A stretch of DNA of 64,000 nt from Caenorhabditis elegans (Eukaryota; Nematoda; Chromadorea; Rhabditida; Rhabditidae). Under the pieces are notes generated by a model. The model made no database searches. It was not told the origin of the DNA and saw only the letters and a program-made list of their open reading frames with translations. Location: contig NC_003284.9 in assembly GCF_000002985.6 (NCBI RefSeq), positions 2,976,001-3,040,000 of the forward strand, given 5' to 3'. Below, in pieces: positions 14,125-57,067 of the stretch (positions are counted from its first letter, which is position 1; each line of letters starts with the position of its first letter). A program made the position numbers and the translations under genes.

Positions 14125-15351
14125 CAAGGGGTGCGCGGCAATTGCCGACCGTCAATTCAACAAAATGAACCAGTGCGGAATGTTTTCTCAAACTAGGGCT
14201 GTGCAAATCGGCGTCGTCCGATTTTGACACCACCGAACGCACATGCATCCGGTTTGGGGTAGGTTTCCACGGCGGCCGACAATTTCCGAGTTTGGCCACT
14301 CACTATACTTAATCAGCAATTTTACAGTGAGTGGCCAAACTCGGAAATTGTCGGCCGCCGTGGGAACCTACCCCAAACTGGACGCATGTGCGTCCAGTGG
14401 GTCGATGGTGCGTCCGGTGGTGTCAATATCAGACGACCGGACGCCGATTTTCACAGCCATATCTCAAGTTATTTCATTAAAATTCGATGATAAAGTATAG
14501 AAAATTATTTGCTTTATCTGAAAATACCCTTTTTTTGTTTTTATCTTCCAGACAATTTTCGAATTTTCGAGCACTTTTTCCAGTTGTTTCAAATTAAATA
14601 AAGATTATTTTTAGATAATGAAAACACTGGTCTATAGTTTTTTTTATTGAAGTAACATGGCACATAGGCTTATTTGGTAGAATTGCCGGTACCCCTGGTT
14701 TTCAAAATCTGGGTTATGAGATCTTGGTCAAACACGGAAAGTGGATGTATTCAGTAAAATGACAAAAATTATTTTTTACTGCTGTATGCATACAAACCCC
14801 CTTGAAGAAGAAGAACTGAAATGTGTGCTACATGCCCTTGAAATGTCAAAAGTTTTCTGAAAAACAATTTAAAAGATCTTCAGGTATGCTCACGAATACA
14901 ATTCCAGAAAACAGTCTGACACTAAGGAAAACTGTTAAAATGTGTATGTTCGCGTGAAATACACAAACACAAAATTTAAAATGTAGTCCCTTTTAGGGTA
15001 CTTGTTTAGCATGCCTGGCCCAAAAATTATAATTAATTTGAAAATTTTACGTGACGCTTCTCGTTTCAAAGCCTAAAAATGCAAATCAAATTTACGTATC
15101 GATTAAATTATCATTAAAAAATCATGGAAAACGAATTAAAAATTTTTTTTGGACTAGGTATACTACACAAGTACTCCAATAACACTGACAATTTGTTTTT
15201 TGTTAACATTTTTATTTCAGAAGCTGAAGATTTCTCCTATGATGATCCTGTTGCAATATCCAGCCGCCCAAAAACAGGCACGCGCAAAACTACAACAGAC
15301 ACCAACATTGATGATTTTGGAGACTTTGATGACAGCCTTTTGCCAGATTGA
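8278..15351 (+). CDS. osm-5: OSM-5, intraflagellar transport protein IFT88/Polaris
   Basis: TPR protein of the IFT-B complex, needed to build sensory cilia. Fifteen exons keep phase: 8278-8358, 8952-9014, 9363-9432, 9484-9588, 9639-9684, 9735-10044, 10454-10679, 10726-10963, 11386-11593, 11915-12216, 12263-12413, 13319-13434, 13514-13717, 13767-13978 and 15221-15351, giving 820 aa. The N-terminus is acidic (FREDDDDFYGGFDSYD), followed by the IFT88-type RPMTAVRGAGYTS. TPR units begin near residue 155 (LFNLAQQYEANDMTNEALNTY) and recur (VNIGNIHFRKREFTKALKYY, VNQGNIAYMNGDLDKALNNY, MIASCLRRTGNYQRAFELY). A basic and Gly/Ser-rich tail ends in an acidic DDFGDFDDSLLPD. The short intron at 13718-13766 avoids an in-frame TAA. 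Introns 1, 11 and 14 carry mobile elements. Expression in ciliated neurons is expected from the X-box. Confidence 0.95.
8473..8803. mobile_element. Palindromic MITE-like element, copy 2
   Basis: It shares the arms of the element at 6735-7175: 'tttgcaaaaaccaaagaaacg', then 'caaatgagtgacgtcac', and the mirrored 'atgacgtcaac' and 'gacgtttctttgatttttgaa'. It lies within osm-5 intron 1. Confidence 0.6.
12430..13300. mobile_element. DNA-transposon-like insertion in osm-5 intron 11
   Basis: The ends form long imperfect inverted repeats. The left has 'cataacttttttcgctgctta' and 'ttgatttttctaaaact'; the right has the reverse complements 'agttttagaaaaattgatcag' and 'cagcaaaaaaagttatg'. It ends in 'aacccataata', mirroring the 'tattatgggac' at the left. 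It has no ORF of note, so it is non-autonomous. Nested inside is a near-perfect hairpin at about 12700-12762. Confidence 0.65.
12700..12762. repeat. Hairpin with TGACGTCA-type ends
   Basis: The arms cacaactgtattaaaatac and its reverse complement flank a T-rich loop, with 'ggcgtca' on the left and 'tgacgtcat' on the right. A related half-element is seen at 27600-27690 (atacatttatgacgtcacaac). Confidence 0.6.
13990..14122. repeat. Tandem repeat 'gagagtatagatta' plus GA microsatellite
   Basis: About seven copies of a 16-bp unit (attagagagagtatag) run directly into a pure GA tract. The array starts a few bases after the donor of osm-5 intron 14, so slippage here lies next to a splice site of an essential cilia gene. 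Confidence 0.85.
14210..14450. mobile_element. Foldback element, copy 1 (osm-5 intron 14)
   Basis: Nearly perfect inverted arms at about 14257-14375: 'ggtaggtttccacggcggcc', 'gacaatttccgagtttggcc' and 'actcac' are mirrored after a short AT loop by 'gtgagtggccaaactcgg' and 'ggccgccgtgggaacctacc'. Outer arms with 'gcgtccg' motifs are looser. A diverged relative lies at 37200-37385 in flp-18 intron 1. Confidence 0.75.
14990..15187. mobile_element. TIR element, copy 1 (osm-5 intron 14)
   Basis: The left end 'gggtacttgtttagcatgcc' and right end 'ggtatactacacaagtactcc' are inverted relatives. A second copy at 40665-40835 shares 'aaatgcgaattttacg', 'aatggaaaacgcatt' and the right end 'aggtatactaaacaagtacc'. 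Likely a short non-autonomous DNA transposon. Confidence 0.55.
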
Positions 15352-15563
15352 TAATTTAATTAAAATAAATTTGTCTGATAATAATCATATTTTAACAACC
15401 ATTTATCACATTTATTGTGAAAAGCAATAAAGACAAAGACAAGTATAACAATTTTGTTGAATAAACATTGTAAACGAAGGAGACTTTTGGATCAAGTATG
15501 AAATATAAAATTCAGATGGAAAATCCTAAAATGACAAATTGAAACGCTATCTGAAAAACATTG

Positions 15564-15972
15564 CCCGTAATTTATATTTTTCTGAAGATGAGGAATTTAA
15601 TTTTTGATTTGCCCGTAATTTATATTTTTCTGAAGATGAGGAATTTATTTTTTGATTTGCCCGTAATTTATATTTTTCTGAAGATGAGGAATTCATTTTT
15701 TGATTTGCCCGTAATTTATATTTTTCTGAAGATGAGGAATTTAATTTTTGATTTGCCCGTAATTTATATTTTTCTGAAGATGAGGAATTCATTTTTTGAT
15801 TTGCAAGTAATTTATATTTTTCTGAAGATGAGGAATTTATTTTTTGATTTGCCCGTAATTTACATTTTTCTTAAGATGAGGAATTTATTTTTTGATTTGC
15901 CCGTAATTTATATTTTTTTGAAGATGAGGAATTTATTTTTTGATTTGCCCGTAATTTACATTTTTCTTAATA
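15564..15972. repeat. 48-bp tandem repeat, about 8.5 copies
   Basis: The unit reads gcccgtaatttatatttttc, then tgaagatgaggaattt and attttttgattt. The period is 48 bp (16 codons), so frames stay open across copies on both strands and yield repetitive false ORFs (for example the peptide PVIYIFLKMRN over and over). It starts about 210 bp after the osm-5 stop. Confidence 0.9.
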
Positions 15973-15989
15973 TACTAAAAATACTAAAA

Positions 15990-18900
15990 AAAAAAATAGC
16001 AATCCATTTTCATAAAAATTCTCCCAAAATTCCAAAATTTTTATTTTTGTTTTTTTGCGCCTGTATATACCTGTTGAAATTGGAATTCAAGACAAAAACC
16101 CCTGTAGCGCGTCTGAAAATTGATATCTTGGTACAAAAACGTACCAATAATACTAAAAACAAATTAGCAATCCATTTTCATAAAAATTCTCCCAAAATTC
16201 CAAAATTTTTATTTTGCAAAAAAGTGCAGTCATATGTATGTAAAAAAATGAATTCAAGACAAAAACCCCTGTAGCGCGGCTGAAAATTGATATCATGGTA
16301 CAAAATCGTACCAATAATACTAAAAAAACACAAAAACGTACCAATAATACTAAAAAAAAAATAGCAATCCATTTTCATAAAAATTCTCCCAAAATTCCAA
16401 AATTTTTATTTTGTTTTTTGCGCCTGTATATACCTGTTGAAATTGGAATTCAAGACAAAAACCCCTGTAGCGCGGCTGAAAATTGATATCATGGTACAAA
16501 AACGTACCAATAATACTAAAAAAAAATTAGCAATCCATTTTCATAGAAATTCTCCCAAAATTCCAAAATTTTTTTTTTGCAAAAAAGTGCAGTCATATGT
16601 ATGTAAAAAAATGAATTCAAGACAAAAACCCCTGTAGCGCGGCTGAAAATTGATATCATGGTACAAAATCGTACCAATAATACTAAAAAAACACAAAAAC
16701 GTACCAATAATACTAAAAAAAAAATAGCAATCCATTTTCATAAAAATTCTCCCAAAATTCCAAAATTTTTTTTTTGCAAAAAAGTGCAGTCATATGTATG
16801 TAAAAAAATGAATTCAAGACAAAAACCCCTGTAGCGCGGCTGAAAATTGATATCATGGTACAAAAACGTACCAATAATACTAAAAAAAAAAATAGCAATC
16901 CATTTTCATAAAAATTCTCCCAAAATTCCAAAATTTTTATTTTGTTTTTTTGCGCCTGTATATACCTGTTGAAATTGGAATTCAAGACAAAAACCCCTGT
17001 AGCGCGGCTGAAAATTGATATCATGGTACAAAAACGTACCAATAATACTAAAAAAAAATTAGCAATCCATTTTCATAGAAATTCTCCCAAAATTCCAAAA
17101 TTTTTTTTTTGCAAAAAAGTGCAGTCATATGTATGTAAAAAAATGAATTCAAGACAAAAACCCCTGTAGCGCGGCTGAAAATTGATATCATGGTACAAAA
17201 TCGTACCAATAATACTAAAAAAACACAAAAACGTACCAATAATACTAAAAAAAAAATAGCAATCCATTTTCATAAAAATTCTCCCAAAATTCCAAAATTT
17301 TTTTTTTGCAAAAAAGTGCAGTCATATGTATGTAAAAAAATGAATTCAAGACAAAAACCCCTGTAGCGCGGCTGAAAATTGATATCATGGTACAAAAACG
17401 TACCAATAATACTAAAAAAAAAAATAGCAATCCATTTTCATAAAAATTCTCCCAAAATTCCAAAATTTTTATTTTGTTTTTTTGCGCCTGTATATACCTG
17501 TTGAAATTGGAATTCAAGACAAAAACCCCTGTAGCGCGGCTGAAAATTGATATCATGGTACAAAAACGTACCAATAATACTAAAAAAAAATTAGCAATCC
17601 ATTTTCATAGAAATTCTCCCAAAATTCCAAAATTTTTTTTTTGCAAAAAAGTGCAGTCATATGTATGTAAAAAAATGAATTCAAGACAAAAACCCCTGTA
17701 GCGCGGCTGAAAATTGATATCATGGTACAAAAACGTACCAATAATACTAAAAAAACACAAAAACGTACCAATAGTACTAAAAAAAAATTAGCAATCCATT
17801 TTCATAGAAATTCTCCCAAAATTCCAAAATTTTTTTTTTGCAAAAAAGTGCAGTCATATGTATGTAAAAAAATGAATTCAAGACAAAAACCCCTGTAGCG
17901 CGGCTGAAAATTGATATCATGGTACAAAATCGTACCAATAATACTAAAAAAACACAAAAACGTACCAATAATACTAAAAAAAAAATAGCAATCCATTTTC
18001 ATAAAAATTCTCCCAAAATTCCAAAATTTTTTTTTTGCAAAAAAGTGCAGTCATATGTATGTAAAAAAATGAATTCAAGACAAAAACCCCTGTAGCGCGG
18101 CTGAAAATTGATATCATGGTACAAAAACGTACCAATAATACTAAAAAAAAAAATAGCAATCCATTTTCATAAAAATTCTCCCAAAATTCCAAAATTTTTA
18201 TTTTGTTTTTTTGCGCCTGTATATACCTGTTGAAATTGGAATTCAAGACAAAACCCCTGTAGCGCGGCTGAAAATTGATATCATGGTACAAAAACGTACC
18301 AATAATACTAAAAAAACACAAAAACGTACCAATAATACTAAAAAAAAAATAGCAATCCATTTTCATAAAAATTCTCCCAAAATTCCAAAATTTTTTTTTT
18401 GCAAAAAAGTGCAGTCATATGTATGTAAAAAAATGAATTCAAGACAAAAACCCCTGTAGCGCGGCTGAAAATTGATATCATGGTACAAAAACGTACCAAT
18501 AATACTAAAAAAAAAAATAGCAATCCATTTTCATAAAAATTCTCCCAAAATTCCAAAATTTTTATTTTGTTTTTTTGCGCCTGTATATACCTGTTGAAAT
18601 TGGAATTCAAGACAAAAACCCCTGTAGCGCGGCTGAAAATTGATATCATGGTACAAAAACGTACCAATAATACTAAAAAAAAATTAGCAATCCATTTTCA
18701 TAGAAATTCTCCCAAAATTCCAAAATTTTTTTTTTGCAAAAAAGTGCAGTCATATGTATGTAAAAAAATGAATTCAAGACAAAAACCCCTGTAGCGCGGC
18801 TGAAAATTGATATCATGGTACAAAAACGTACCAATAATACTAAAAAAAAAAATAGCAATCCATTTTCATAAAAATTCTCCCAAAATTCCAAAATTTTTAT

Positions 18901-19400
18901 TTTGTTTTTTTGCGCCTGTATATACCTGTTGAAATTGGAATTCAAGACAAAAACCCCTGTAGCGCGGCTGAAAATTGATATCATGGTACAAAAACGTACC
19001 AATAATACTAAAAAAAAAAATAGCAATCCATTTTCATAAAAATTCTCCCAAAATTCCAAAATTTTTATTTTGTTTTTTTGCGCCTGTATATACCTGTTGA
19101 AATTGGAATTCAAGACAAAACCCCTGTAGCGCGGCTGAAAATTGATATCATGGTACAAAAACGTACCAATAATACTAAAAAAACACAAAAACGTACCAAT
19201 AATACTAAAAAAAAATTAGCAATCCATTTTCATAAAAATTCTCCCAAAATTCCAAAATTTTTATTTTTGTTTTTTTGCGCCTGTATATACCTGTTGAAAT
19301 TGGAATTCAAGGTACAAAAACGTACCAATAATACTAAAAAAAAATTAGCAATCCATTTTCATAGAAATTCCCTCAAAATTCCAAAATGTTTTGTTTGTTT
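15990..19400. repeat. Satellite array with higher-order structure (532-bp super-unit)
   Basis: About 19 monomers of 166-197 bp, each starting near 'gaattcaagacaaaaacccc' and containing 'tgtagcgcggctgaaaattg', 'atatcatggtac', 'gtaccaataatactaaa' and 'tagcaatccattttcat'. Two kinds of monomer end alternate: one with 'tgcgcctgtatatacctg', the other with 'gtgcagtcatatgtatg'; some also carry a second 'acacaaaaacgtaccaataa' block. Order repeats every 532 bp in the centre (ORFs at 16713, 17245 and similar are exactly 532 bp apart). The ORFs here are repeat artefacts. Confidence 0.92.
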
Positions 19401-20469
19401 TTTTTTTCGAATTTTTCAGAAGGTTCCTAGAGAAAGTTATACAAAATCCTAGAAGTTTCTCGAGTTTCCCATAAGATTTGAGGAAATTAAAATGTTTCTT
19501 GAAATTTCTAAAAAATTCCTAAGTGTTCTTGAAGTTTTTTTAGACGGGTTCTAAAGAAAATTTCATAAATTTCTTAAATTCTCCAAAAGGCTCTAGAACA
19601 TTTCAATTTTTTTAATTTCCAGAAAATTCCAGAACATTCTAAAATTTTCGTGAATTTTCCAGAATGACATAACTGATAACATATAATAGTTTGGGTAAAA
19701 TTGGAATCGTCACTAGACCACGTAACACATTGGGACGTAAGCAACGCGTTCCATTTGGGAATAGTATTGTATTGATCCATTTATTTTGTAAAGGAGAGCG
19801 TCGCAGCTGGCCGTTAAATGTTATATTCTTAAAGGAGGAGAAGTGGGTATTTTGGAATAAAGAAACAGTTATGAAGCAGTTGTGAAACAGTGTAAATTTT
19901 CAAATTTCGGAAGTATTTTACAGGTTCATTTTCTGTTTCATTTGTCGGAATTTTAAGATTTGAAAAAGTGTATCTATCAACTTGCTAGCAAAATGCGCAA
20001 AGAGCTAAGATCACTTGAGCCATTCACTCAACCGACCCCTGAAGTGTTTTCCAACCTGTGAAAAAAACAAAAATTAAACTTTTATTTAGACAAAAATACA
20101 ATAATTGACAAAATATGTTCTACTGAATATCAGCTGGTCATTAAAACATCACAATTGTTTTGTAAACAGCATCAAATGTGATTTTATGGAGAAGGAGGCC
20201 AGATAAAGTCTCTGAAATTTGTAAAGAAAAACATTTTATCAGATATTATTATAACTGAGTACCTGGAGTTCTGTTTAGAAAAACAGTCAAAAAACATTGC
20301 ATAAATCAATGTGAGGTGTGGGAGTTTTCTGAAAAATAAATGAGTAATTTTTTTTTCTACATTCATTTCAATTTTTCTTCAATAAATGCACAAAGAAAAA
20401 AGTCAAATTCCAAATTTTAGATTTTTATAATTAGTAAAACACAGCAAGCAAGTTTTGACTAGAGGTTAT

Positions 20470-26529: not shown

Positions 26530-26997
26530 TTTAAAACAATTGCACCAATATAAGAAAAATGATTTTTATTCAAAATTAATTTGCTGACAGAATTATCTAA
26601 ATTTCTAAGAATCATTCTCAGACAAAAAAGTTGTGCACTGTGAATTAGTTACCAAAACTTTGAGACCTAAAACACAAAGCAAAGACAAAAATTATGGAAA
26701 ACGTGATTGCATGGGTTCAAAAACAAAATTCATGAATAATGAAAGAAAAACTCAAATAAAAAGTCGTACTTATTTGTGATTGTGTAACTGATTAATGAGC
26801 AGATAAAAGAAATAGTGTGATACTTTCGGAGGCACTTAGCAGACTCACTAATTGTTTATTGATATTGCATTTCGACTATCATATGAAAATTAGGAATCTG
26901 TCATTGTCTATATCCTATTATTCATAATTTCGCAAAAGAATCATGTGATGTTACGAATCGGTCAAAACTAGAAGATGATCTCACGGAAATTAGGGAG

Positions 26998-27135
26998 CAA
27001 GTTAGTTCGAGTTGAGTGAAACTTGGGTAAAACGTTGTTGCAGCCTGAATCCAGGTTTTGCAAAAGTCTTGCCTTAATTTAGTCAACTTCTTATCCAAGT
27101 TAATATTTTTTGGGTCAAACTTGTGCAAGACTACA
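26998..27135. repeat. Dispersed 'gcctgaatcca' repeat, third copy
   Basis: It has 'gcagcctgaatccaggtttt', 'ttatccaagttaatat' and 'gggtcaaacttg', matching the intronic block in both arms of the inverted duplication (about 51720-52010 and 53590-53920). Confidence 0.55.
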
Positions 27136-27297: not shown

Positions 27298-28329
27298 AAA
27301 GTGCACTGTAGAGCCAAATGCCGATCTATATGTAAGGCATTGATTTTTCAAGATACCTAAATTTTTAAACAAATTTTGTAAAATTTTTAAAATTCAATTC
27401 TGATAAAATTAAAATTGAGTGTTTTTCATAGGAAAGTCTGCTAAATTTTCATTCAGATATCATAATAGTTAGTTGTAATCCTACTCCGTTTTTAATCACC
27501 ATCAATTTTCAGATATATTTCTTTAAAGTTTAACTTGTTTCAATTGGCACATCGAAATATCAAAAATTCGTACTCCACATTTAATTATTTTATTGAATCA
27601 TAGTAATTAATGGGGTTATTTAAGTAATGTTGCAAAATGTATTTAAATACATTTATGACGTCACAACTGACTTCAAAAATACACGCTTTCATTTATTTCA
27701 TTACAGTAGTAATTTTTCTACACTTCTCAATTTTCCGGCACTACTTGAATAACCCCATAAAGCAATTAGATTTCGTACAAACCTTTTTTTTGGATTTCAA
27801 CATTTTCACCCATTATCTCCAAATGTTAAATTGTCCAACGGATTGATCGTCTGTTCTACCCAATTTTTTCTCACCAGACTGCATAGTTCTCGGCGACGGA
27901 CGTGTAGGTTCCCACCGATCGTATAGTTCCAACACATCGCGTTCTTATGCAAAACAGTTTTGTTGTCTTCCTCCTCGGCTCGACGCAATTTCTTTGCGCT
28001 ATTTTTTTTTCATTTCGATGTGTTGGCCGATCCATCATCAAAAACGTTTTCACGACACAAACCTCTGCAAGCAATGTTTTATAGAAAGCTGAGGGTGTGT
28101 GTGTGTGCCAGATGGTGATACACTTTCTAACCAACAGTGAATTATATTTCCGTTTTTTTGTTCATTTCTAAGATTTTTCTCTAAGAAGAAATATGTAATT
28201 TTATGTCTACATTTAAAGCTTTTAAGTTTACTTTCAAATTTTCCATAGACTAATTAAACATTTGTTTTATTTTTCTACAGTACTGATATTAATGCTCCTT
28301 GAAATTTCAATCGTTAGAGTAACACACAG

Positions 28330-28560
28330 TTACACGACCTCATCAATCGTGTCACTGGTCTTTCTCTGACGAATTGAAGTTCTGGAGACAATTTTGGTTG
28401 TTGAAAAGGCTGAGTTGAGAGAAAGCATTTCAGGAATAGCATACCAATGCATCTCATTTCCGCCACCGTCTACGTGCAACGTTTTCTTCGGAGCATCATT
28501 TCCGAAAGGCCGTCGCTTCATCTGCCCGTCTCTTTTTTTCAAATAACGCTCATTTCATCT
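28330..28560 (-). CDS. Candidate coding exon, unassigned
   Basis: An island of higher GC in AT-rich DNA. The minus frame ends at 28330 with a protein-like sequence (QMKRRPFGNDAPKKTLHVDG, then EMLSLNSAFSTTKIVS and RQRKTSDTIDEVV) and is followed by an AATAAA-type signal near 28270. No splice acceptor was found that joins it cleanly to the minus ORF above (28539-28740). The plus strand is also open (28447-28728) and ends in a perfect donor (AAT|GTAAGT). So a gene fragment is likely here, but its strand and limits are not settled and no family is recognised. Confidence 0.25.
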
Positions 28561-30448
28561 GGTGCACATGGCCTAAATGAATGGGATGCAGTGTGTTCGC
28601 TTCGATTTGACGCCTTACGCCTTACTGAATCATTCCGTCGTGCACTTTTTATCGGAAAGCTGCCAAAGCTCTTTTTCTCACCCATCAGCACAGAATTTTT
28701 CGCTAACAGAAACCTCAAAACAATGTAAGTGAATTGTTTTGTGTAGATGGTGGAAATGAGCAGGCAATGTTTTCTGACTTTATTCACAGATTGAGGTACT
28801 GTTTTGAATTGAAAATATTATATTTCTATCTATAAATACTCTAAATATGTTAAAATTCACAGTTTTGAACTGGAGTGAGCGGAAATTTTCATACAAATTT
28901 TCGGCAAAACTGCAGTTGCCAAAAATGTCAAATTATCATAAATCGTTGAATTTGCAATTTCGGCAATTTCAGCAGTTTTGGCAGTTGCCAAATTTGCCGA
29001 TTGCCAAAAATTTCCCATTTCCGCGCACTCCTGGTTGGGGCAAAAAATATTTTGAAGCGTTTGAACTTGATAATTTAACTTGATAATTATTTTACACGAA
29101 TTATTTTTAAATGCCGCCCATTGTCTTGGTGAACTTTTTTTGTATAATTTTTTTGCAGTTTTTTGAAAATAAAAACAAACGAGTTAATTAATTAAATGAG
29201 CACATAGTTTGTTACATAAGATTGGCATACATAGTCTGAAAATTTAAATTTCTTAATAAAAATCAATTTAATATAGCTTTTCATAGAAATAAGAAAAAGT
29301 TCAAACTTTATCATTGAATCATTTTTGATTTGAATTTTAAAAATCCTGCAATCATGCTTGATAGCATTTCACAATATTTATAATCCAACGTTTTCCAGTT
29401 TTTCCAGTTTTTGCATGTCTTGTTTTATTTGACAGGAAAACTACATAATATATCAAACATACATTTTTCTGTAAAGCAAATTTTAAATAAAAGTTAGAAA
29501 AAAATAACTACTTTATAAGTTTCACAAGCGGTCAGAAAGGTAATGGCAAAAGGCACTGAAGGTGGACCAATTTATTTGTGGAAAATTAAGGTCACCTACA
29601 GCAGCGCCAAGTATTACTGGTATGGAAAAAAAGGGGTGCAAGACTACAATACTAATAGAGGAAATACAGTAATTAGATTTTTTTTAAAGTTGTGTCTAAA
29701 GTAGTGTTTTGAGTGATAGTATTAAGCAGCAGTGTTTACTTTTGTGCAAAAAGTTGCATTTTTCTTGTGAACGTCAAAATGTTTTAAGAGAGATCTTAAA
29801 TTCACACCGTTTTGAATTCAATAAGGTTTCTGCAGAACAAGAAAAAAATGGGGGAAAAACAACAATTGTTTAGTTAGTTTATCCCCGTACACCTCCGTTA
29901 CGTCCAAACAATAATAAGTGACAGGAATCATTCCAACCAAAACGTCATAAAGAATGGAGACGGCTAAATTGAAGATGAAGCAACTATGCAGGTAGAAAGT
30001 TGGTACATCACCATACTTGGCACATTTCTATGTTGCTATTTGATGCCACTTACCATTTTCTGTCAGTATGTAATAGCATCTGGAGACGAACATCTGCCAA
30101 CTGGATTGAACAAAACAACTTGCACACAAGAGAGAGGTCCACCTAGCAATGATGGCTCATAAAAAAATTAATGAGAAAATGCGGTTATGGCAGATGCCAC
30201 TGTTTTACAGAAGAGGAAGGAAAAGGAAACAGTTACGAATTCTGCGTCTCTACACATTCTCACCTGCTAGAGGTCACTCTTTCCAGTAAATTTTAAATTC
30301 CACATTATTTTGTTTAAATGTTTCAGAAGGAATTTTAGTTGAACAATATTTAAGAGAAGCGATTCTCAATTCAATTCATGCAAGTTGATTTTCACTATAA
30401 TTTTTCAATGTGGAATTAAAATTAATTTGTATAAAAAAATTCCTCTTT
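28561..30448. other. Intergenic, dispersed repeats only
   Basis: It holds a TTGCCG-rich repeat at 28880-29030 and a block with 'ctaatagaggaaatacagtaa' at about 29640-29680 that resembles 25105-25130. Otherwise AT-rich DNA without recognisable genes. This stretch and its left neighbours may include the upstream control region of mir-249 only if that gene is read from further right, as it lies on the minus strand. Confidence 0.4.
28880..29032. repeat. Degenerate 'ttgccgaatttgcc' repeat, copy 1
   Basis: Repeated variations on 'cggcaatttcagcagttttg', 'gcagttgccaaatttgccga' and 'ttgccaaaaa'. The reverse orientation is seen at 40985-41140. It gives a spurious Gln/Phe-rich ORF. Confidence 0.6.
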
Positions 30449-30525
30449 CGACTGGCAACGCTCAAAAGTCCTGTGACAAACATTCAGATGTTGTCGCACA
30501 GAAGACGTTTGTGCGTTGCTAGTCG
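30449..30525 (-). ncRNA. mir-249: microRNA precursor mir-249
   Basis: On the minus strand this 77-nt stretch folds into one long hairpin: the 5' arm begins CGACTAGCAACGCACAAACG and the 3' arm ends GAGCGTTGCCAGTCG, with only small bulges and a terminal loop around CATCTGAATG. The 3' arm holds TCACAGGACTTTTGAGCGTT (mature region 30454-30476), which I recognise as miR-249-3p. It lies in an intergenic region between the Gln-rich gene and the orphan secreted gene, so it is probably transcribed on its own. Confidence 0.9.
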
Positions 30526-31212
30526 TTCAAGAGTATAGATACACAATATGCAATAGAAACAATAAGAAATAATATGACAGCGCCAATGAAATAAGGGGAA
30601 AATTTTGCGGCATCGTTGCATGCACAAGATACTAGTGTTTGATTAGAGTCCGATGTTCTTTTTTATAGACACACTGAGGATATACTTTGACGTAATGAAA
30701 ATCCTGAGTTAATCTGTCTAAATGCTACAACTTGTGACGAAATATGCAGGAGAAATTGACGAAAGCAAAGTTAGTAAATACAAACAAGAATGCCGGGAAA
30801 ACAAGAGGGGATTCATTACGAGAAGTGCAACTAGATAAGTCGTACATCACTTTATCTGTTTAATGGATTAGATTTACTATAAATAACTGCAAAAATTCAT
30901 AAAACAACATCATGAAGTTCTGCTATGCGTTATTTAAAAGAAATAATATCTGCAGGCCCCAAGATCATGAATGCGTTTTGGCCTGAATTTATCTACGTTG
31001 CACATACTGCTTGATAACGTTGAAACTATTTTCAGTTTTTAATATATTGAAATAACATTTTATAACCTATCAAAGCAAAATCCATTAACGATAATATCTG
31101 AACATCATTACTATATATAAAGCGCTATTCCGTTTGTCTCTGACGTCACGGTTGACGTCACAATTTTCAGCGCAAGAAATTATTTTAGAACATTTTGAGG
31201 CTACTTATGATG

Positions 31213-32045
31213 TTTTCGTGTAACAATCTATTTTTCGTGTAACAATCTATTTTTCGTGTAACAATCTATTTTTCGTGTAACAATCTATTTTTTCGTGTAA
31301 CAATTTATTTTTCGTGTAACAATCTATTTTTCGTGTAACAATCTATTTTTTCGTGTAACAATCTATTTTTCGTGTAACAATCTATTTTTCGTGTAACAAT
31401 CTATTTTTTTGTGTAAGAATCTATTTTTTCGTGTAACAATCTATTTTTCGTGTAACAATCTATTTTTCGTGTAACAATCTATTTTTCGTGTAACAATCTA
31501 TTTTTTTGTGTAAGAATCTATTTTTTCGTGTAACAATCTATTTTTCGTGTAACAATCTATTTTTTTGTGTAACAATCTATTTTTTGTGTAAGAATCTATT
31601 TTTCGTGTAACAATCTATTTTTCGTGTAACAATCTATTTTTCGTGTAACAATCTATTTTTCGTGTAACAATCTATTTTTCGTGTAACAATCTATTTTTCG
31701 TGTAACAATCTATTTTTCGTGTAACAATCTATTTTTTCGTGTAACAATCGTGTAACAATCTATTTTTCGTGTAACAATCTATTTTTTTGTGTAACAATCT
31801 ATTTTTCGTGTAACAATTTATTTTTCGTGTAACAATCTATTTTTTTGTGTAACAATCTATTTTTCGTGTAACAATCTATTTTTCGTGTAACAATCTATTT
31901 TTCGTGTAACAATCTATTTTTCGTGTAACAATCTATTTTTCGTGTAACAATCTATTTTTCGTGTAACAATCTATTTTTCGTGTAACAATCTATTTTTCGT
32001 GTAACAATCTATTTTTCGTGTAACAATCTATTTTTCGTGTAACGT
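31213..32045. repeat. 19-bp minisatellite, about 44 copies
   Basis: The unit is ttttcgtgtaacaatctat with length variants (one to three extra T) and a sequence variant, tttgtgtaagaatctat, that recurs at intervals. One junction near 31740 has a partial unit, a sign of unequal exchange. It starts just after 'gacgtcacggttgacgtcac'. Confidence 0.95.
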
Positions 32046-32369
32046 GTAACACAAATTAGTTGAAAAATACATATCTAGTTGAACTAGTTGAAAAAAAGTT
32101 GTCACTATTGATCCTAGCCGCACCAAGGTACACCCCACTTTGTCACTTTGGATACTTTGTCTTTAAAGATCTTTGCAAAAAACCTTTCTTACAGGGCGGT
32201 TTTTGCAAAGTGAGAGAAGACTCGCCCACTAGCATAACATGAAAACGGATCATTTATCGCCTTGAGAACTATTTTAGATAATTTTGGGTCAGGTATCAGA
32301 ATGATGGAGCTAGATGCGCGAGATAAGTAGCAGTGAGATGCCCTAGATAACTACTTAAATCGCTTTGCA

Positions 32370-35467: not shown

Positions 35468-36416
35468 ATGGATGCGTCAAATGTTGTGATTCAAGGTTTT
35501 TTCCTTTAATCACCCCTAATAAGTTAATTGATTAAGAATTTTTTGTTAGTCCTATCAGTACCTCATGGGTTGGATACCACTCCGAAACATACGGTACTTA
35601 AAATTATTGTTAATGAACGTAGTGAAAAGTGAAGCCATAATTAAGTAGAAAACTTGTTGACTTTGTTGACTTGCTTACAATTAATTTTAATATTGATGCT
35701 CTCTCTGAAATGAAAGAAAAATTGTACAGTACTAGATTCATCAGTGTATTGGGAAAAGCAGTTTGAAAAAATCTTCATGATCCCAGATTCAATTAATCAA
35801 ATCTGAAACTTGAAAGAGAATTAAGGACGGAAATTACCTGTGCACATGAAGTTGGTTATTTGATAATTCAAAAAACTTTTCTGCGTTTCAAATTTTTTGG
35901 AATCATTTTGATACACATGCTTCAAATTTTCAGCAGCTTCATGAATAGACTCATTTCACACTGGGTTCTGTTTAGACTTATCTAATCTGATAACTGACAT
36001 AACACAAAGCATACTTTTTCATCGTTTGAAAGCTCAATGAATCAATTCCTAAAATGCACAGAGTTGGAGGTAATTATTCTTTTCAACACACGTCAACCAT
36101 GAACAAATCTGCTTTTCAACATTGTTCAGAAAACAATTGATAGACACACAACTACATTACTCAAAAATTAGACGAACTGTGTTTGACGTAACAGGAAATG
36201 ATTCATTTAATCGTATGGAGCTCTAGAATTGACAACGTTTAGTATCATTGTTGAAAAGAGACAAAAACTTAATATTAAGTGATTGAAATGAGACGCTCGG
36301 AAGAAAAGAAGAAAAACAACGAGATCATCGAATTGTCGCTGGCACATTTTACATTCACATTCATCTGAAACTTGATACATGTCAGACTGGCAAAATCTTA
36401 TTTAGAAACTTACAAT

Positions 36417-38278
36417 TTACTTCCGTCCGAATCGGAGAACACCTGGCACACTTTTCTTGAGCAAAACCCCTGCGTAATGCTCTTCCAAGTCGGATCGCTT
36501 TCCAAATCTGAAAACAAAAACCTTGGTAAGCTGGATGAAGTCTTAAAATGATCGGACCTCAATACACCGGGAACATCGCGTTTTCCGAAACGGAGAACTC
36601 CGGGCACTTCACTGCGCTTGTCGAACGAATCAGCCATGTAATCTCTCTTTCCGAATCTCAACACTCCTGGGATCTCCCGTTTGTCCATTGGCACATCACG
36701 TTTTCCGAAACGAAGAACGCCTAAAAACTGAGATGTTATTTGATTTAGAATAGATGATGATGCCACCTGGAACACTTTTCTTCTCATCGAAATATGAGCG
36801 TTTCCCGAAGCGAAGAACTCCTGAAAGTCAATTTTCAGTATGCAATAAACCAACAAGGAACTACTTACCTGGAACACTTTTCTTCTCGTCAAAATATGCA
36901 CGTTTACCGAAACGGAGCACTCCCGGCATTTCTTTTTTCTGCACACTGCTTTCTCTTTTTTCCCAAACACCTCCACGTTTTCCAAAGCGCAACACACCTG
37001 GCATCGCCCCATCAAAGTCTGAAATTAGACAAAAAATTGATGGTTAGTTGTACGAAGAATTTTGTACCTCTTTTTGAGAATACCCGACCGTCTTGTTTCT
37101 CGTTGGTCCGAGTCACTTCGATATCCTCTGCTGGTATGTCTTCTTCGACGATTTCATAGACTGAAAATATAAGTTGTTTCAATGTGCCGTCTTGTATTTA
37201 GGGCTGCCATATCGGACGTCCGGCGTCCGACAATTTCCGAGTTGAGCCACTCATTATAAAATTATATGATTATGTATAGTGAGTGGTCAAACTCGGAAGT
37301 TATCGGACGCCGTGAAAAACTACCCCTTGGAAAAAAAAGTTTGCGCCCCTATCGGACGCTAAGCGTCCAAATTCCTCCTAATTGCAGTTATGTATGTGTT
37401 TCGATCGACCTTACGAGAATTTTCAAAAATTTCAAATTCATGCTTTCAAATCGACACAATTCAATTGTGCACCCCTGTTGAAAAAAGAAACGAAAAAAAA
37501 CACGTTTCTTGTTGATTGAAATCGTCGAAATACATCACTTTGGCAGAACGACAGCGTCATTTTACTTGGCTTCCCGCGTTGGTCTAGATGGGTACAGAGC
37601 ACCATCGAACGAAACATGTCCCAACGGGCCCCGACAAGAAAGAATAAAAAACTCAGCATCCAACTCAACACTATCTTTCCACAATATCCATAGGCGCCCC
37701 CTTTTTTTCCCGCTACATCTTGTTTTCATCCAAGCGTTTTTCCTTCCAAAAATACATTGGGCCACTCTAGATTATAGAAAGTTTGAAGGTCAGTGGAAAC
37801 ACTTTTCAATAAGACAATAACACCAAGTCTAGAGATTCACGGACCGTGGGAAGCAGCGAAGATTATTCATAGGTCTCACTGGAAAATGAATATCACAGAA
37901 GCTTATAAAAACTAATGAAGTTTCAATACGGATGCGATGTTTGAACACCGCGCAAAATTATTTCAGCTAACTACGTCAGGTCCAGAATTTTGAAAAAAAA
38001 CTAATGTACGCGAAACCAACGTTTCGACAAACTACAAAGTTAAAAATTTTAAAATAAAATTCAAGATTACATTAAGACAAATTATTGCCGTCATTTTATT
38101 CAATCTTCCACGCTGATCTGGGGCTATCCAAACTCCCTTCAAACCCAATTAAGAGATTGGATCAGCCAAGACTTTTCTTTGTTTCGTTCATCAAGAACTT
38201 ACTTGGTTCGGTATATGCGAGCGCCCCACGAAGCAAACAACACAGCGAAATGAGAAGAACGCCCGACCACCGTTGCAT
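36417..38278 (-). CDS. flp-18: FLP-18 FMRFamide-related neuropeptide precursor
   Basis: Minus-strand gene with six exons in phase: 38278-38203, 37160-37068, 37018-36869, 36820-36767, 36720-36558 and 36507-36417, giving 208 aa. It starts [20 protein letters not shown] (signal peptide). After a spacer it yields a series of peptides ending PGVLRFG before K/R cleavage sites: [31 protein letters not shown] (three times), [19 protein letters not shown] and DVPGVLRFG. The Gly supplies the C-terminal amide. This set is diagnostic of flp-18, whose peptides act on NPR-4, NPR-5 and NPR-1 to control feeding, foraging and fat. Several introns interrupt the PGVLRFG repeats at the same place (after CCA G), showing that exon duplication made the array. 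Intron 1 (about 1 kb) carries a foldback element. Confidence 0.97.
37200..37385. mobile_element. Foldback element, copy 2 (flp-18 intron 1)
   Basis: The arms 'gcgtccgacaatttccgagt' plus 'tgagccactcat' and 'atagtgagtggtcaaactcg' plus 'gaagttatcggacgc' are inverted around an AT loop. The same core occurs in osm-5 intron 14 (14257-14375). 'Cggacgt/cggacgct' motifs mark the ends. Confidence 0.7.
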
Positions 38279-50706: not shown

Positions 50707-51198
50707 ACACCAAAAGATCATCTTCATACAACTAGCCGCTTCACATTGGAATCAATTGCATAATAATGTTAATAATGATTTAGTCAACCATTTTCTCAAT
50801 TTTTGAAGTAGTATTCTTTTTCATCCTTTCCTGGCTATTCTTTCATCAGTTGTTTTGCATAATAAAACAAAAAAATCACAAAGACAGAATGATCTTGCAT
50901 AATTCGACTATATGCTCGATGTGATTATTCGAACATAACTGACAATCTTACACAATAAACTTTATTACAAACTTTATTACGAATAGTCATTTATACTAGA
51001 AAATACTGAACAAAGTAGGCTAGCTTGTACGGAAGGTTGTTAAAGAAAATTGCAATATTTGACCAACGAAACGATAACTTAACAGCAAATATACAGACAA
51101 TTTATGAAAATTAACATTGAATTCCCAAAAAAAAAAACAATAAAATGAAAGAACATGGGGTCCCTTTTTCGCATAAAACTTTCAATTCAATCACAAAT

Positions 51199-52262
51199 AT
51201 TTAGAGCAATGATGTTGATAGCATGGATATTTCACGAAAGCATCGACCATTTTCAAACAAAACTGCCTTCACACTTCATGACGTCAGAGCAAATCGAATG
51301 AGCTGTGTTCTGTAAAAATAAAATTTGAGAAAGTTGTAAAAAAATAATTTAAAATACTTCTCTGTTGAAAATTTTCCCGATCGCTTCTGTGACTAGGATC
51401 GTATTTTGAATTTTTTTGAAGCAGTGATCGTCATTCTTGGCGCAAAGGACATGGGGAGAACCTTGTTGAATTCCTGGATAAACTTCGACAACTCCTGAAA
51501 ATTCGTAATGCCAAATAAGGTAAAGATTTCGAGCAAACGCAAATTTCGAACAAACTTAAGAAAAAATGCTCACCTTTTCACTTAATTCGAACACGCGACT
51601 ACACGAGGAACAGCTCCAGACTGAGGTTGGCAACCTTCTTCCATTCGTAGTTCTGAAATACTTCCATAAAAAAACATAAATACACAGTTTGCATCTTTTT
51701 TAAGTTTGGCCCAGAAATATTAATTTGGATTAGAAACTAGCTGAACTTAGGAAAAAGTTAGGCAAGACTTTGGCAAAACTTGGATTCAGGCTTTGCCGAA
51801 GTTTAGCCAAAGTTTAATCTAACTCTTGCCAAACATTGGTCCAATCTTTTCTTTTTTCGTTTCAAACATGGACCAACGTTTGGCAAGAGTTAAGTGAATC
51901 TTGGGTTAAACTTCGGTAAAGCCTGAATCCAAATTTTAACTTTTGCACAAGTTTAGCCAGCTTCTGATCCAAGTTAATATTTTTGGGCCAAACTTGGGCA
52001 AGAAGCTAGAGCCAAATGTCAAGATAGTTGATTAAAAACACAAAGATTACAAATATACTCACTCGTCATTGCAAATGTTGAACACGTGTGAGCAAGCTAG
52101 CTTCTGCCAATTCCGGATTTCAAAAAAGCCTTCAATGATGATGTCACCAACTTGTTTCAAAAGTTTCAAGAATGCGAAGCATGTCTGTTTTGTTGCTTCG
52201 TTTTGTGAGCAGGCTCTTCTGGTCCATGAGTAGATAGTCGAAAAAGCAAAGTCCAGATCCTA
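51199..52262 (-). repeat. Left arm of a large inverted duplication
   Basis: This segment, read on the minus strand, matches 53341-54412 on the plus strand almost throughout, introns included: exon with TCACACGTGTTCAA, the 'gcctgaatccaaatttt' intron block, the exon with GGTTGCCAACCTCAGTCTGG and the 3' end with GGCAGTTT(G)TTTGAAAATGG. The unique spacer is about 1.08 kb. See the two gene entries for what each arm encodes. Confidence 0.9.
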
Positions 52263-53237
52263 AATATGTTATACTTGTTTGCAAAATATAGTGCCACTCA
52301 AAAGCAAAAAAAAAGCAAACAACTCACTGAGCCTAGTGTTTCGATCCCATCAGGACAGTCTGGGCACGTAAGTGGGGGCAGATCCAATACTTCTCGTTTT
52401 GGCCGGTTATCCTCTTCCTGAGTATCCTGGAGAGGTTTTCTGCGGGGTTTGAAGTTATCTCCATCATCGAGATTGTCATCATCATCGGTGCGACTGCGAC
52501 GGTTGGCTTTACGAGACTTCTGAAAAATAAATATTTTTCATCAATTTCTTGCTCGATGTTAAACTTACATTTTCCTCCTCTTCATAATCCTCATTCTCAT
52601 AGTCCGATTCATCTTCGTCACGGTGATTTAGGGATGAGCGACCTCTAGCGTTGTTGTTGTGACGACGTGTTGGCCGGGACTTCATCTCCTCACGATCCTC
52701 GTCCTCGTAGTCGTATTCCAGGTCTTGACTGCGACACTTCGACGTTCCACGGCGGTGAGACTTCTTCTCTTCAACGACATCGTCGTCTTCTACCTCATGA
52801 CGACGGCGCAAACGTGAATCGCGAGTTTTCGATCCAGATTCAGCCGATCTCTCTAGATCCCTGTCTGACTTGCTCTTCGGGCTCTTGGGCAAATTGTTGA
52901 TTGCCTTTGAAAGTAAGTCCTTCTCATCTGAAGTCAGTACTTCTTCCATGGAACTCCCTCTGACTTGAGAACCAATGTGATGAGTCGATGGAGCCAACTG
53001 AACTTCAGCAGATACAAAATCAAATTGAGCATCGTCCTCCAACTTGAACAATTGAATTCCATCGTGGACGAAGAACGAGTCAGCAAAAGTTCCTTTTGAC
53101 ACGAAGAACAGGTGCTCTTGCTGAAACCTGGTTGGAAGTTCGGATGCCGCGAAAGTACAACGGAAGTCAGCTTTGCCCGCACCAAGAAAACGATGAGAAT
53201 GACTGGCCGACCAGTGGTTGTTTTGTTGGTCTCGCAA
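51393..53237 (-). CDS. Charged, cysteine-motif protein, unknown function
   Basis: Minus-strand gene. Exons: an upstream one ending at 52569 (start unresolved; an ATG at 53237 opens the frame, an internal ATG gives MEEVLTSDEKDLLSKAINNL), then 52519-52328, 52259-52063, 51652-51574 and 51494-51393. The first part is very charged (DLEYDYEDEDREEMKSRPTR; DESDYENEDYEEEEN). Next come LPPLTCPDCPDG (CxxC), RRACSQNEATKQTCFAFLKL and WSCSSCSRVFELSEK (CxxC), spaced like a disulfide or metal-binding fold. I do not recognise the family. Relative to the plus-strand copy the last exon lacks one base (CTCCCCATG against CTCCCTCATG), so the frame shifts and stops early at 51393 with an unrelated tail; the cysteine-rich end conserved in the other copy is lost here. 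Confidence 0.6.
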
Positions 53238-53340
53238 TGTTCGTCCCGCTCGCGCGTGTAGATCAAAACAATTGTGTCAAAATGAAAAAAGGGAGACATA
53301 GAAACGAAGGGTGCGCGAAGAATTTGCCAAATGTATTTAG

Positions 53341-54412
53341 GATTTGAGCGTTGCATTTTCGCCTGTCTACACGTGGTCCAGAAGAGCATGCTCACACAAC
53401 GAAGAAACAAAAAAGACTTGCTTCGCATTCTTTAAACTTATGAAACAAATTGGAGACATCACTATTGAAGACATTTTTGAAAACCAGAATTGGCAGGAGC
53501 TAGCTTGCTCACACGTGTTCAATATTTGCGATGACTAGTGAGTATATTTGTAATCTTTGTATTTTTAATCAACTATTCTGGCATTTGGCTCTAGCTTCTT
53601 TCCCAAGTTTGGCCCAACTTGGATCAGAAGCTGGCTAAACTTGTGCAAAAGTTAAAATTTGGATTCAGGCTTTACCGAAGTTTAACCCAAGATTCACTTA
53701 ACTCTTGCCAAACGTTGGTCCATGTTTAAAACGAAAAAAGAAAAGTTTGGGGCAAAGTTTGGCAAGAGTTAGATGAAACTTTGGCTAAACTTTGGTAAAG
53801 CCTGCATCCAAGTTTTGCCAAAGTCTTGCCTAACTTTTTCCTAAGTTCAGCTAGTTTCTAATCCAAGTTAATATTTCTGGGCCAAACTAAAAAAAGATGC
53901 TAGAGCCAAATAAACATCAAACAAAAATAACTGTGTATTTATGTTTTTTTATGGAAGTATTTCAAGACTACGAATGGAAGAAGGTTGCCAACCTCAGTCT
54001 GGAGCTGTTCCTCGTGTAGTCGCGTGTTCAAATTAAGTGAAAAGGTGAGCATTTTTTCTTAAGATAACGTTTGCTCGAAAACTTTACCTTATTTGACATT
54101 ACGAATTTTCAGGAGTTGTCGAAGTTTATCCAGGAATTCAACAAGGTTCTCCCTCATGTCCTTTGCGCTAAGAATGGCGATCACTGCTTCAAAAACATTC
54201 AAAATACGATCCTAGTCACAGAAGCGATTGGAAAAATTTTCCACGGAGAAGTATTTTAAATTATTTTTTTACAACTTTCTCAAATTTTATTCTTACAGAA
54301 CACAGCTCATTCGATTTGCTCTGACGTCATGAAGTGTGAAGGCAGTTTGTTTGAAAATGGTCGATGCTTTCGTGAAATATCAATGTTATCAACATCATTG
54401 ATCTAAATATTT
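53341..54412 (+). pseudogene. 5'-truncated inverted copy of the neighbouring gene
   Basis: It matches the last exons of the minus-strand gene in opposite orientation: VYTWSRRACSHNEETKKTCF to VFNICDD (53341-53540), a diverged middle exon near 53970-54040, ELSKFIQEFNKVLPHVLCAK at about 54113-54250, and a final exon from about 54301 (SICSDVMKCEGSLFENGRCF). The charged N-terminal exons are absent. At the end of the first exon the donor codon has become TAG/TA-, and the next acceptor reads CAAGAC in place of CAGAAC, so the middle exon cannot be joined in frame. Yet the last two exons are open and keep the cysteines that the minus copy lost. I call it a pseudogene with caution. Confidence 0.6.
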
Positions 54413-54561
54413 GTTTTTCAATTGTCTATCCTTGTGTTCTTTCCCTAATTTCCAAAGCAACAAGTCCAATATGTTTTACATCCACTAATTTTCTCATCTC
54501 GCTCTTTGATATGTTTTACAACTGTGCAATGTCTCTAGTAAATGGAAAAATATATTACCTT

Positions 54562-54819
54562 TCAAAATAGATGGCTGTTGATCTCGTGAGTTTCTCTCAT
54601 GATGATTTCTACCAGAGCATACTTGTGATGGATGACGATTGGCTCATGTGATGATTCTCTTGGAAGCATTGACGAGTGAACTCTTTTTCTGATTCGGTAT
54701 AAGCCGTCGGATCCAAGGTAAATATCTAAATCAGTACCGAATTTCGAAATGTTGTTTTCCATTTCGCGGTAATGTTCCTGGATAATGAATTTTTGTGTCA
54801 TTCGTCTTTGTTGCAGCAA
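54562..54819 (-). pseudogene. BEL/Pao-type retrotransposon scrap (integrase region)
   Basis: The 85-residue minus frame includes DLDIYLGSDGLYRIRKRVHS, then HEPIVIHHKYALVEIIMRET and HEINSHLF. This is the order found before the integrase of Pao/BEL LTR elements (a 'DG-hR-GR...' stretch, P-hh-hh..., and an ELII...HE...H zinc-binding start). Nothing of gag, reverse transcriptase or LTRs is seen beside it, so it is a dead fragment. Confidence 0.5.
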
Positions 54820-54837
54820 TAGATTTGAATTCTAGCG

Positions 54838-55795
54838 TTAAAGGAGAACAACGGGATTTGCGGCGAGAATCGTAGCTGATTTTGGAGGAACGACGGAAGA
54901 AAGAGTAAATCTATGGATATGGCAACGCAATTTTCCGGAGACAAGCGAAAAAGGACAAAAAGGACTCTGTGTTGGCTCCCACTGATGTCTCGTGAACATG
55001 AGCACAATCGGAAAACCAAAGAAGTTTCGACCGATGGAAGCAAATAATTCCGAGGTGGAGTACCGAAATTTGAGACTTTGCGTTTTAGACACAAAATGAC
55101 GCAAACCTACCGAATTTCGTAACCAGACGTTCTGAAAATTTTTCAAAAAAAAAAATTATGGGCGCTCAAAGTTTTGGAAAAAAATGGCCCTTTTTAGCTA
55201 AAATCTCAAATTTTTGATAACTTTTCAGTGTCGCAGCGGTTGGAACTTAATTTTTATTTGATTGTCATCCTTTGCATGTTTTGGCATTTTATTACGTGTT
55301 ATTTTGTTGATCGAAATGTTTTTTGGTTGATGCGGGCACAATTATGGTACCAAAAACGCATCTCAATTAACAAAATAACACGTAGTAAAATGCCAAAATA
55401 TGCAATTAAAGATGACAATCGAATAAAAATTAAGTTTTTTGGTCGATGCGGGCACAATTATGCAACGATTTATATGTTTGTATACTTATTTGAAAACAAT
55501 GAAATATCAGCAAACAATCAAACACTAATATGCTTTTGACCACCACCGCAAAATAATTTCCGTTTAAATATAACTTCTTGATAATACGACTACAAATGCT
55601 GCTTCCAAATTATTTCCAAAAGGTTATCATTTTTAATTAATCAGTGACATTTTCATAAACCGCGATAAAGTATTTCAAGAAAGACCAAACTCCCTAATGA
55701 CGATTCGGAAATTGAAATCATCATGCAATTATGGTGCACTGATAACAGTTGTATAAAAATCGTCATCGGAGGCATTGATATCGCTCGATTCGAAA
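54838..55795. other. Repeat-bearing intergenic stretch
   Basis: It includes a dispersed repeat at about 55080-55260 (related to 7192-7425) and a direct/inverted motif pair, 'gatgcgggcacaatta' at 55330 and 55445, around an 'acaaaataacacg' inverted repeat (55285-55400). The promoter of the C-type lectin gene lies at its right end. No gene seen. Confidence 0.4.
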
Positions 55796-57067
55796 ATGTC
55801 GCAAAACTTAATTTTTGTAATTTCTCTTATTGCTTCTGTGTTTTACTGCACAAATGCTTTAACTTGCCCAACTGGAACAAAAATCTATAACGCAAAGTGA
55901 GAATCCGTTCTTATTCGAATTGCACTGTTAATACATTTGTTTAGATGCTACGCAGCTCTTGGCATGGATATGACTCGGGATAATGCCCTTGCCTACTGCC
56001 GGAAGACATACGGACCATATGCCAGACTCACCACACCCCTCACGTATGCTGAGAATAACTTTGTCACTGAACAAGTTCAATGTAAGTTTAAAACGTTTTA
56101 TCTACATACATTTGAATTATTGTAGTACATGCTAATTGGCACACTTGGCTCGAATATGTAGCTGATGGAACATATATTGTTGGAGATGACGGAAAACCAC
56201 CAATCTACACAAACTTTGCAGTTGGTAAGTTCAAAAAGCTTTCAATTGAACATTTTGTTCACCAGTCATTTTGTTTCAGGAGAACCATTCAGTGTAAACG
56301 TTGGTTATTGCATCACAATTGGAATGAACGGATACTGGTATGCTCAGCCATGCCCAGATTCTCACAGTGTACTGTGCGAATTTGACCTTGTGCCACCAAC
56401 CCCGAAACCAGTGCTCACCACAACTGTAAAACCAAGTGGATTTCCGAGCTGTGTTCAAAAGTATTTGAGTAAGTTATTTTTCTGGAGGATTTCCAAATTT
56501 ATTAATTGGCTCTTCATTTCAGACTTTGTTCCATGCCAATCCGGATGGGAGTACTATCCACCAACATGTGCTTGTTTCAAGATTATTTCCAACACTACCT
56601 ATTATAATGCTATGAACACTTGTAGAAGCATGGGAGGAACACTGGCTTCTGTTCATAATGCAGGAGAAGCTGCTTTCATTAACCGTAAGATTTTGCGCTA
56701 AAATCAATTATATATGTACTTATATTCGAATTTTCAGGTCTTGGAGTCCAAGCGAATTCATATTGGGTTTCTACCGCGACAGCTAGAGACAACATTATTA
56801 TTGGGCTAACTTATAACTCGGACCGTGGATACTTCCAATGGGATGACTCTACTGTTTTTGACTATGCTCAGGGATTCGCTCCAGCTGAGCCGGCCGACTA
56901 TACTAGCCAGGGACAGGTACTAATTTTTTTGAAACGGCATTTTTTTCAATGTTTGTTGTTTTCAGATTATCTTGAACAATCCGATGGGGTATGCAACCTA
57001 CATGAGAATGGGCAACTGTGCCTATCAAACATGTCGATATGCAGCATGTAAACGATATGTCTATTAA
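55796..57067 (+). CDS. Secreted C-type lectin with two CTLDs
   Basis: Seven exons in phase: 55796-55896, 55945-56081, 56126-56224, 56280-56468, 56523-56684, 56738-56916 and 56966-57067, giving 322 aa. The signal peptide is MSQNLIFVISLIASVFYCTNA. CTLD 1 (about residues 25-140) has CYAALGMDMTRDNALAYCR and ends CPDSHSVLCEF. A Pro/Thr linker (PPTPKPVLTTTVKPSG) leads to CTLD 2 with CACFKIISNTTYYNAMNTCR, SMGGTLASVHNAGEAAFIN and a C-terminal CAYQTCRYAACKRYVY. The EPN/WND calcium motifs are not obvious (WDDSTVFDYAQGFAPAEPAD is the nearest), so sugar binding is uncertain. Nematode clec genes of this kind are often expressed in the gut and induced by infection; that is family knowledge, not seen here. 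Downstream, AAT-rich sequence with AATAAA-like signals follows. Confidence 0.88.

Follow-up and report, generated by a model that had tools for sequence, protein, structure and literature searches.

The locus at positions 51195–54424 of the window (the 64,000-nucleotide stretch of Caenorhabditis elegans DNA analyzed here, which we take to lie on the X chromosome) is most likely a partial, inverted and local gene duplication, both copies of which now appear to be decaying. Alignment delimited a minus arm at 51195–52266, named for the strand from which its gene is read, and a plus arm at 53334–54424, which carries a 5′-truncated copy on the opposite strand. The two are separated by a single-copy spacer of 1,067 bases (52267–53333) in which open frames and a codon scan placed the 5′ coding exons of the minus gene. 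In a blastn comparison the arms were 89.5% identical over 1,112 columns when gaps were counted (49 columns gapped), and with gaps left aside 998 of 1,063 columns were identical, leaving 65 differences. The alignment runs from end to end and includes introns as well as exons. The local inverted-match score of the locus was 1724, compared with 39 or less in 100 dinucleotide shuffles. When the window was scanned with 34 frames, each 3,600 bases long, the frame containing most of the locus reached 925 on the same score and all others 170 or less. The inverted duplication with matching exons and introns that was proposed in a preliminary description of this DNA is thus borne out by alignment and shuffles, and the arm limits given there (51199–52262 and 53341–54412) were roughly right, the arms reaching slightly further than described. 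The region shared by the arms starts at the acceptor of an exon designated A (TATTTAG) and ends just beyond a common TAA stop. As in an inverted partial gene duplicate, homologous arms with exons and introns thus lie on opposite strands and one copy is missing part of the gene, the plus arm beginning only at the exon A acceptor.

In the spacer, the minus gene is represented by a 5′ coding stretch (about 53190–52569, minus strand), recognized from its open frame and the codon scan, and by a second 5′ coding exon (52519–52328, minus strand), recognized from its open frame; the splice sites of both were assigned by eye. Codon usage along the minus-strand open frame of the spacer, from 53190 to 52605, was positive at 12 of 14 steps, in a scan that was trained on only 582 codons and for which six of the eight chosen stretches were usable. 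On the minus strand, splicing would place this open sequence in the frame of exon A. The minus copy had been said to keep its N-terminal exons, and open, mostly codon-biased sequence does extend over ~53190–52328; however, the earliest in-frame ATG lies at 52949, and neither open frames nor the codon scan gave a convincing start for the gene within the spacer. A coding scan of the minus strand past 54424 also gave no convincing first exon, although isolated steps of 0.11 (at 55080) and 0.19 (at 54675) match or exceed parts of the spacer.

Four exons, A to D, were assigned to each arm. In the minus copy, exon A (52063–52259) is open, as judged from the open frames, and was not scored as coding by the codon scan. 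Exon B (51574–51652, with the acceptor TTTCAG intact), exon C (51358–51494) and exon D (51201–51309) were placed by arm alignment, and exon C also by its frame. The corresponding plus exons are found at 53341–53537 (A, from its open frame), 53967–54044 (B, from the arm alignment), 54113–54250 (C) and 54299–54406 (D), the last two from their frame. The C-terminal part of the product, as read in the plus exons, contains 11 cysteines, with four in exon A, two in each of exons B and C and three in exon D. A Pfam search with the exons returned no family at its cut-off (sub-threshold matches with E of 0.053 and 0.34), and the best match in a search of PDB sequences had an E of only 0.68. A saposin-like domain, suspected from the cysteine pattern, found no support. 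As expected for a worm gene, no relative was found when the arm was compared with a plasmid collection and the 65-residue plus exon A with viral contigs.

Both arms carry disabling changes in the reading frame, as pseudogenes do. In minus exon C, one base has been lost between 51454 and 51453, opposite 54154 of the plus arm, and a stop follows at 51395–51393. The preliminary description had recognized this loss and confined the damage of the minus copy to a single exon; the loss itself is confirmed, but exon D is damaged as well, by one extra T at 51262 within a run of T. The plus copy lacks the 5′ exons altogether and has a stop directly ahead of its exon A frame. After 65 open codons, the GA/A found at the end of exon A in the minus arm (the slash marks the exon boundary) is replaced by TA/ at 53536–53537, which gives a stop whether the transcript is spliced or unspliced. 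At exon B of the plus copy, the acceptor TTTCAG/A has become TTTCAAG/, and an AG persists one base downstream, out of frame. This acceptor had previously been called broken, which holds insofar as it is altered but is slightly too strong for an AG that has merely shifted by one base. The remaining features ascribed to the plus copy, namely a stop after its first exon, the absence of the 5′ exons and an intact cysteine-rich end, were all recovered, exons C and D being in frame up to the TAA. Read from exon A, the open frame spans 125 residues in the minus arm, 65 in the plus arm and 173 in a minus-then-plus combination, which agrees with the earlier statement that neither arm alone holds the whole C-terminal part. 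Among all combinations of the arms with a single switch, only those beginning in the minus arm and switching anywhere from 51652 to 51453 were open to the common stop. Inspection by eye of exons A and B revealed no other donor sites able to restore the minus frame. From their intact frame, exons C and D of the plus copy could still be in use.

These observations can be accommodated by a simple sequence of events in which the minus gene would be the parent, as it has exons A–D, further coding exons 5′ of them in the spacer and AATAAA signals in its 3′ flank. These signals (TTTATT on the forward strand) are located on the minus strand at 50961 and 50973, about 220–235 bases past the arm. On the plus strand, no AATAAA occurs within 1 kb past the stop at 54406; the next one is at 55422, and variants are present at 54784 (AATGAA) and 55405 (ATTAAA). 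A reverse copy would have been made beside the 5′ exons of the parent, extending from the exon A acceptor to just beyond the stop codon, and would then have acquired its stop and shifted acceptor and presumably lost its function. The parent would have lost the exon C base and gained the exon D base, so that it would now specify the N-terminal part and exons A–B with a short altered tail. After the duplication, the distal parts of the arms would have been homogenised by gene conversion. In C. elegans, the youngest duplicates that share a chromosome are reported to lie, for the most part, next to each other in inverted orientation (Katju and Lynch 2003, cited in PMC4546093), and among older duplicate pairs the two orientations are described as about equal, with no inverted bias (PMC4546093).

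The divergence between the arms changes abruptly along their length. Differences occupy 29 of 204 columns on the exon A side, compared with 36 of 859 in the rest (Fisher p = 1.7e-6), making exon A more than three times more diverged, and a change point was located near 52113 with a likelihood ratio of 24.8 that was reached in none of 5,000 permutations. The rest of the arms forms an unusually similar tract, bounded by this step, of the kind expected from gene conversion. Between the arms, exon A has a pS of 0.21 and a pN of 0.13, and exons B–D together show five synonymous and six nonsynonymous changes. Because the excess in exon A extends to synonymous sites, the step is not accounted for by protein-level selection alone, and the simplest reading is probably an older duplication, the distal arms of which were later homogenised by gene conversion. 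The longest identical run in the distal part (126 columns) was not significant (p = 0.11), and the case for conversion is for this reason built on the drop in divergence past exon A. Overall, pS was 0.126 (13/103.5 sites) and pN 0.063 (26/409.5 sites; Fisher p = 0.038), a marginal indication that one copy may have been under constraint for part of the time.

The intron between exons A and B contains, in each arm, a palindromic element of ~330 bases, identified by alignment, folding and Rfam. The element of the minus arm (51691–52017, minus strand) has one end deleted, and that of the plus arm (53583–53911, plus strand) has both of its 13-base inverted ends, as seen by eye, and an internal 9-base deletion; the two are 93.6% alike. 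The symmetry of the palindrome allows both of these changes to be polarised by eye, as the minus element lost its end in a deletion beside 51691 and the plus element lost nine bases that are kept by its other half. Folded as RNA, the minus intron reached −163.9 kcal/mol (z −14.8) and the plus intron −169.6 kcal/mol (z −13.1), and for neither was any of 100 shuffles as stable. The palindrome, which was missed in the preliminary description, would form the stronger local hairpin, and transcription of a single arm would suffice for double-stranded RNA. Both elements score above the gathering threshold of the covariance model for the mir-266 family (Rfam RF03694; threshold 80 bits), with 83.7 bits at 51749–51831 on the plus strand in the minus-arm intron and 80.9 bits at 53760–53842 on the minus strand in the plus-arm intron. 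On this evidence they could be regarded as genuine microRNA genes of that family, a reading we consider very improbable. The above-threshold matches are both antisense to the gene, and the opposite strand also scores, with 56.7 and 60.4 bits; moreover, the matching stem is not a discrete pre-miRNA hairpin but part of a ~330-base palindrome paired nearly end to end. A degenerate, partial third copy lies at 26988–27132, with a sub-threshold match to RF03694 (27003–27084, 39.8 bits). According to PMC2688010, mir-266 and mir-269 were unconfirmed by high-throughput sequencing, and related hairpins are found in introns of F54F11.2 and Y71G12B.11; PMC2486268, where it treats mir-266, merely groups it with other miRNAs by sequence. 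Taken together, the few copies available suggest that the sequence named mir-266 may have been one copy of a palindromic repeat that is dispersed in the genome. The intronic inverted repeats described in PMC4282642 are in introns of over 1 kb, longer than the A–B intron here.

Double-stranded RNA could also arise from the arms themselves if a single transcript crossed both, folded about the 1.07-kb spacer and fed Dicer, the resulting small RNAs silencing the minus gene. The arms would pair in 12 unbroken stretches, none shorter than 22 bases and the longest of 112, for a total of 578 bases. The spacer gave no convincing start for the minus gene, and a first exon beyond 54424, if there is one, would place the whole plus arm, antisense, in every primary transcript. 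In addition, ERI-6/7-dependent 26G siRNAs are reported to target recent duplicates and pseudogenes (PMC3213143). The same source describes the targets of ERI-6/7-dependent siRNAs as poorly conserved, and the present locus, a duplicate with no Pfam domain at the cut-off, could fall within that class. However, the copies point apart, and since the arms are head to head, transcripts made in their own orientation are both sense and unable to pair. A foldback requires either a minus-strand transcript from beyond 54424, where the coding scan gave no convincing first exon, or read-through on the plus strand from the neighbouring aquaporin gene past the AATAAA signals at 50861, 50954 and 51139. The suggestion in the preliminary description that a foldback transcript feeds the RNAi pathway is weakened by this geometry and is not supported, and we regard a hairpin-RNA locus as unlikely. 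Still less probable is a split gene of the eri-6/7 kind, in which the minus 5′ exons and exons A–B and the plus exons C–D would specify one protein, by trans-splicing or in worms where recombination between the arms has inverted the spacer. For the RNA-level version, in which the minus pre-mRNA up to exon B would be trans-spliced to plus exons C–D as eri-6 is to eri-7, with the palindromic introns as a possible bridge, the 173-residue frame obtained only with a minus-first switch speaks in favour. There is also a precedent in C. elegans in eri-6/7, the first exons of which are inverted in N2 and joined to the remaining exons (PMC12258893, in which trans-splicing appears in a cited title). The lack of an AATAAA within 1 kb past the stop of the plus copy argues against this repair, however, as does the expectation that self-pairing within each palindrome would be favoured over pairing between the two, and we hold it to be highly improbable. 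The lesions might finally be attributed to errors of sequencing or assembly, given that minus exon D gained its base in a T run and exon C lost one in a short C run. Such an origin is equally improbable in view of the four small disabling changes, two per arm, against a background of 65 differing columns, and of the published qPCR primers for M02F4.7 (PMC11126937 and PMC8602821), four of four of which match exactly next door, at 56626–56782 of the window. These primer matches also mark the window as C. elegans DNA. A decaying inverted partial duplicate remains the preferred explanation of the locus.

The gene to the left of the locus encodes an aquaporin domain (Pfam) and is presumably aqp-7. 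The AATAAA signals of this gene (plus strand) and of the minus gene (minus strand) are found within about 115 bases of each other (50861–50973), so the 3′ ends of the two genes converge and may overlap slightly. To the right, between the plus arm and a lectin gene, open stretches are present on the minus strand (54550–55155), and although a Pfam search up to an E of 1 found nothing for three of their peptides, we take them to resemble a decayed integrase region of a BEL/Pao-type retroelement. Elsewhere in the window, Rfam matches were obtained to mir-359 (28301–28383), mir-785 (28675–28762) and mir-249 (30440–30536). Tandemly arrayed repeats, spaced at 48 and about 168/197 bases, lie within 15465–19447, and a minisatellite with a spacing of mostly 19 bases lies at 31212–32111. 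A short inverted repeat at 14230–14400 has 78-base arms that are 92% complementary, with a gap of 15 bases, and a related stretch is located at 37267–37326. An open frame on the minus strand at 36410–37024 contains repeated PGVLRFGKR peptides without a Pfam match and presumably resembles a FMRFamide neuropeptide precursor.

Although of an ordinary kind, the locus provides a clear small example of the decay of an inverted duplicate, and of probable sequence exchange, in C. elegans. With its two intron copies, and a degenerate third one not far away, it enlarges the set of palindromic hairpins resembling the unconfirmed mir-266 and mir-269; both sequence and stem match mir-266 (Rfam RF03694) above threshold, here as part of a ~330-base palindrome and not as a discrete pre-miRNA hairpin. 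Similar to hairpin RNA loci of Drosophila, some of which derive from a piece of a gene (PMC10317233), the locus consists of inverted repeats, here with the copies head to head. With eri-6/7, a C. elegans gene that is polymorphic in the wild (PMC12258893), it shares gene parts on opposite strands that an inversion could rejoin. The existence of chimeric transcripts or of inversion alleles would make it another natural example, in addition to eri-6/7, of a gene divided between the two strands. It differs from eri-6/7 in having arms that duplicate the gene itself. Like the young inverted duplicates of C. elegans (Katju and Lynch 2003, cited in PMC4546093), the copies are adjacent, inverted, partial and furnished with introns, whereas by their divergence (pS 0.126 overall and 0.21 in exon A) they belong to an older class than the youngest duplicates considered in PMC4546093, and both are disabled. 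The closest likeness in terms of exchange is the inverted duplication of GSTT2 (PMC3375281), where dying inverted copies are kept alike by gene conversion; that duplication, in human and chimpanzee, measures 29 kb, whereas the one described here is about 1.1 kb and retains a step in divergence.
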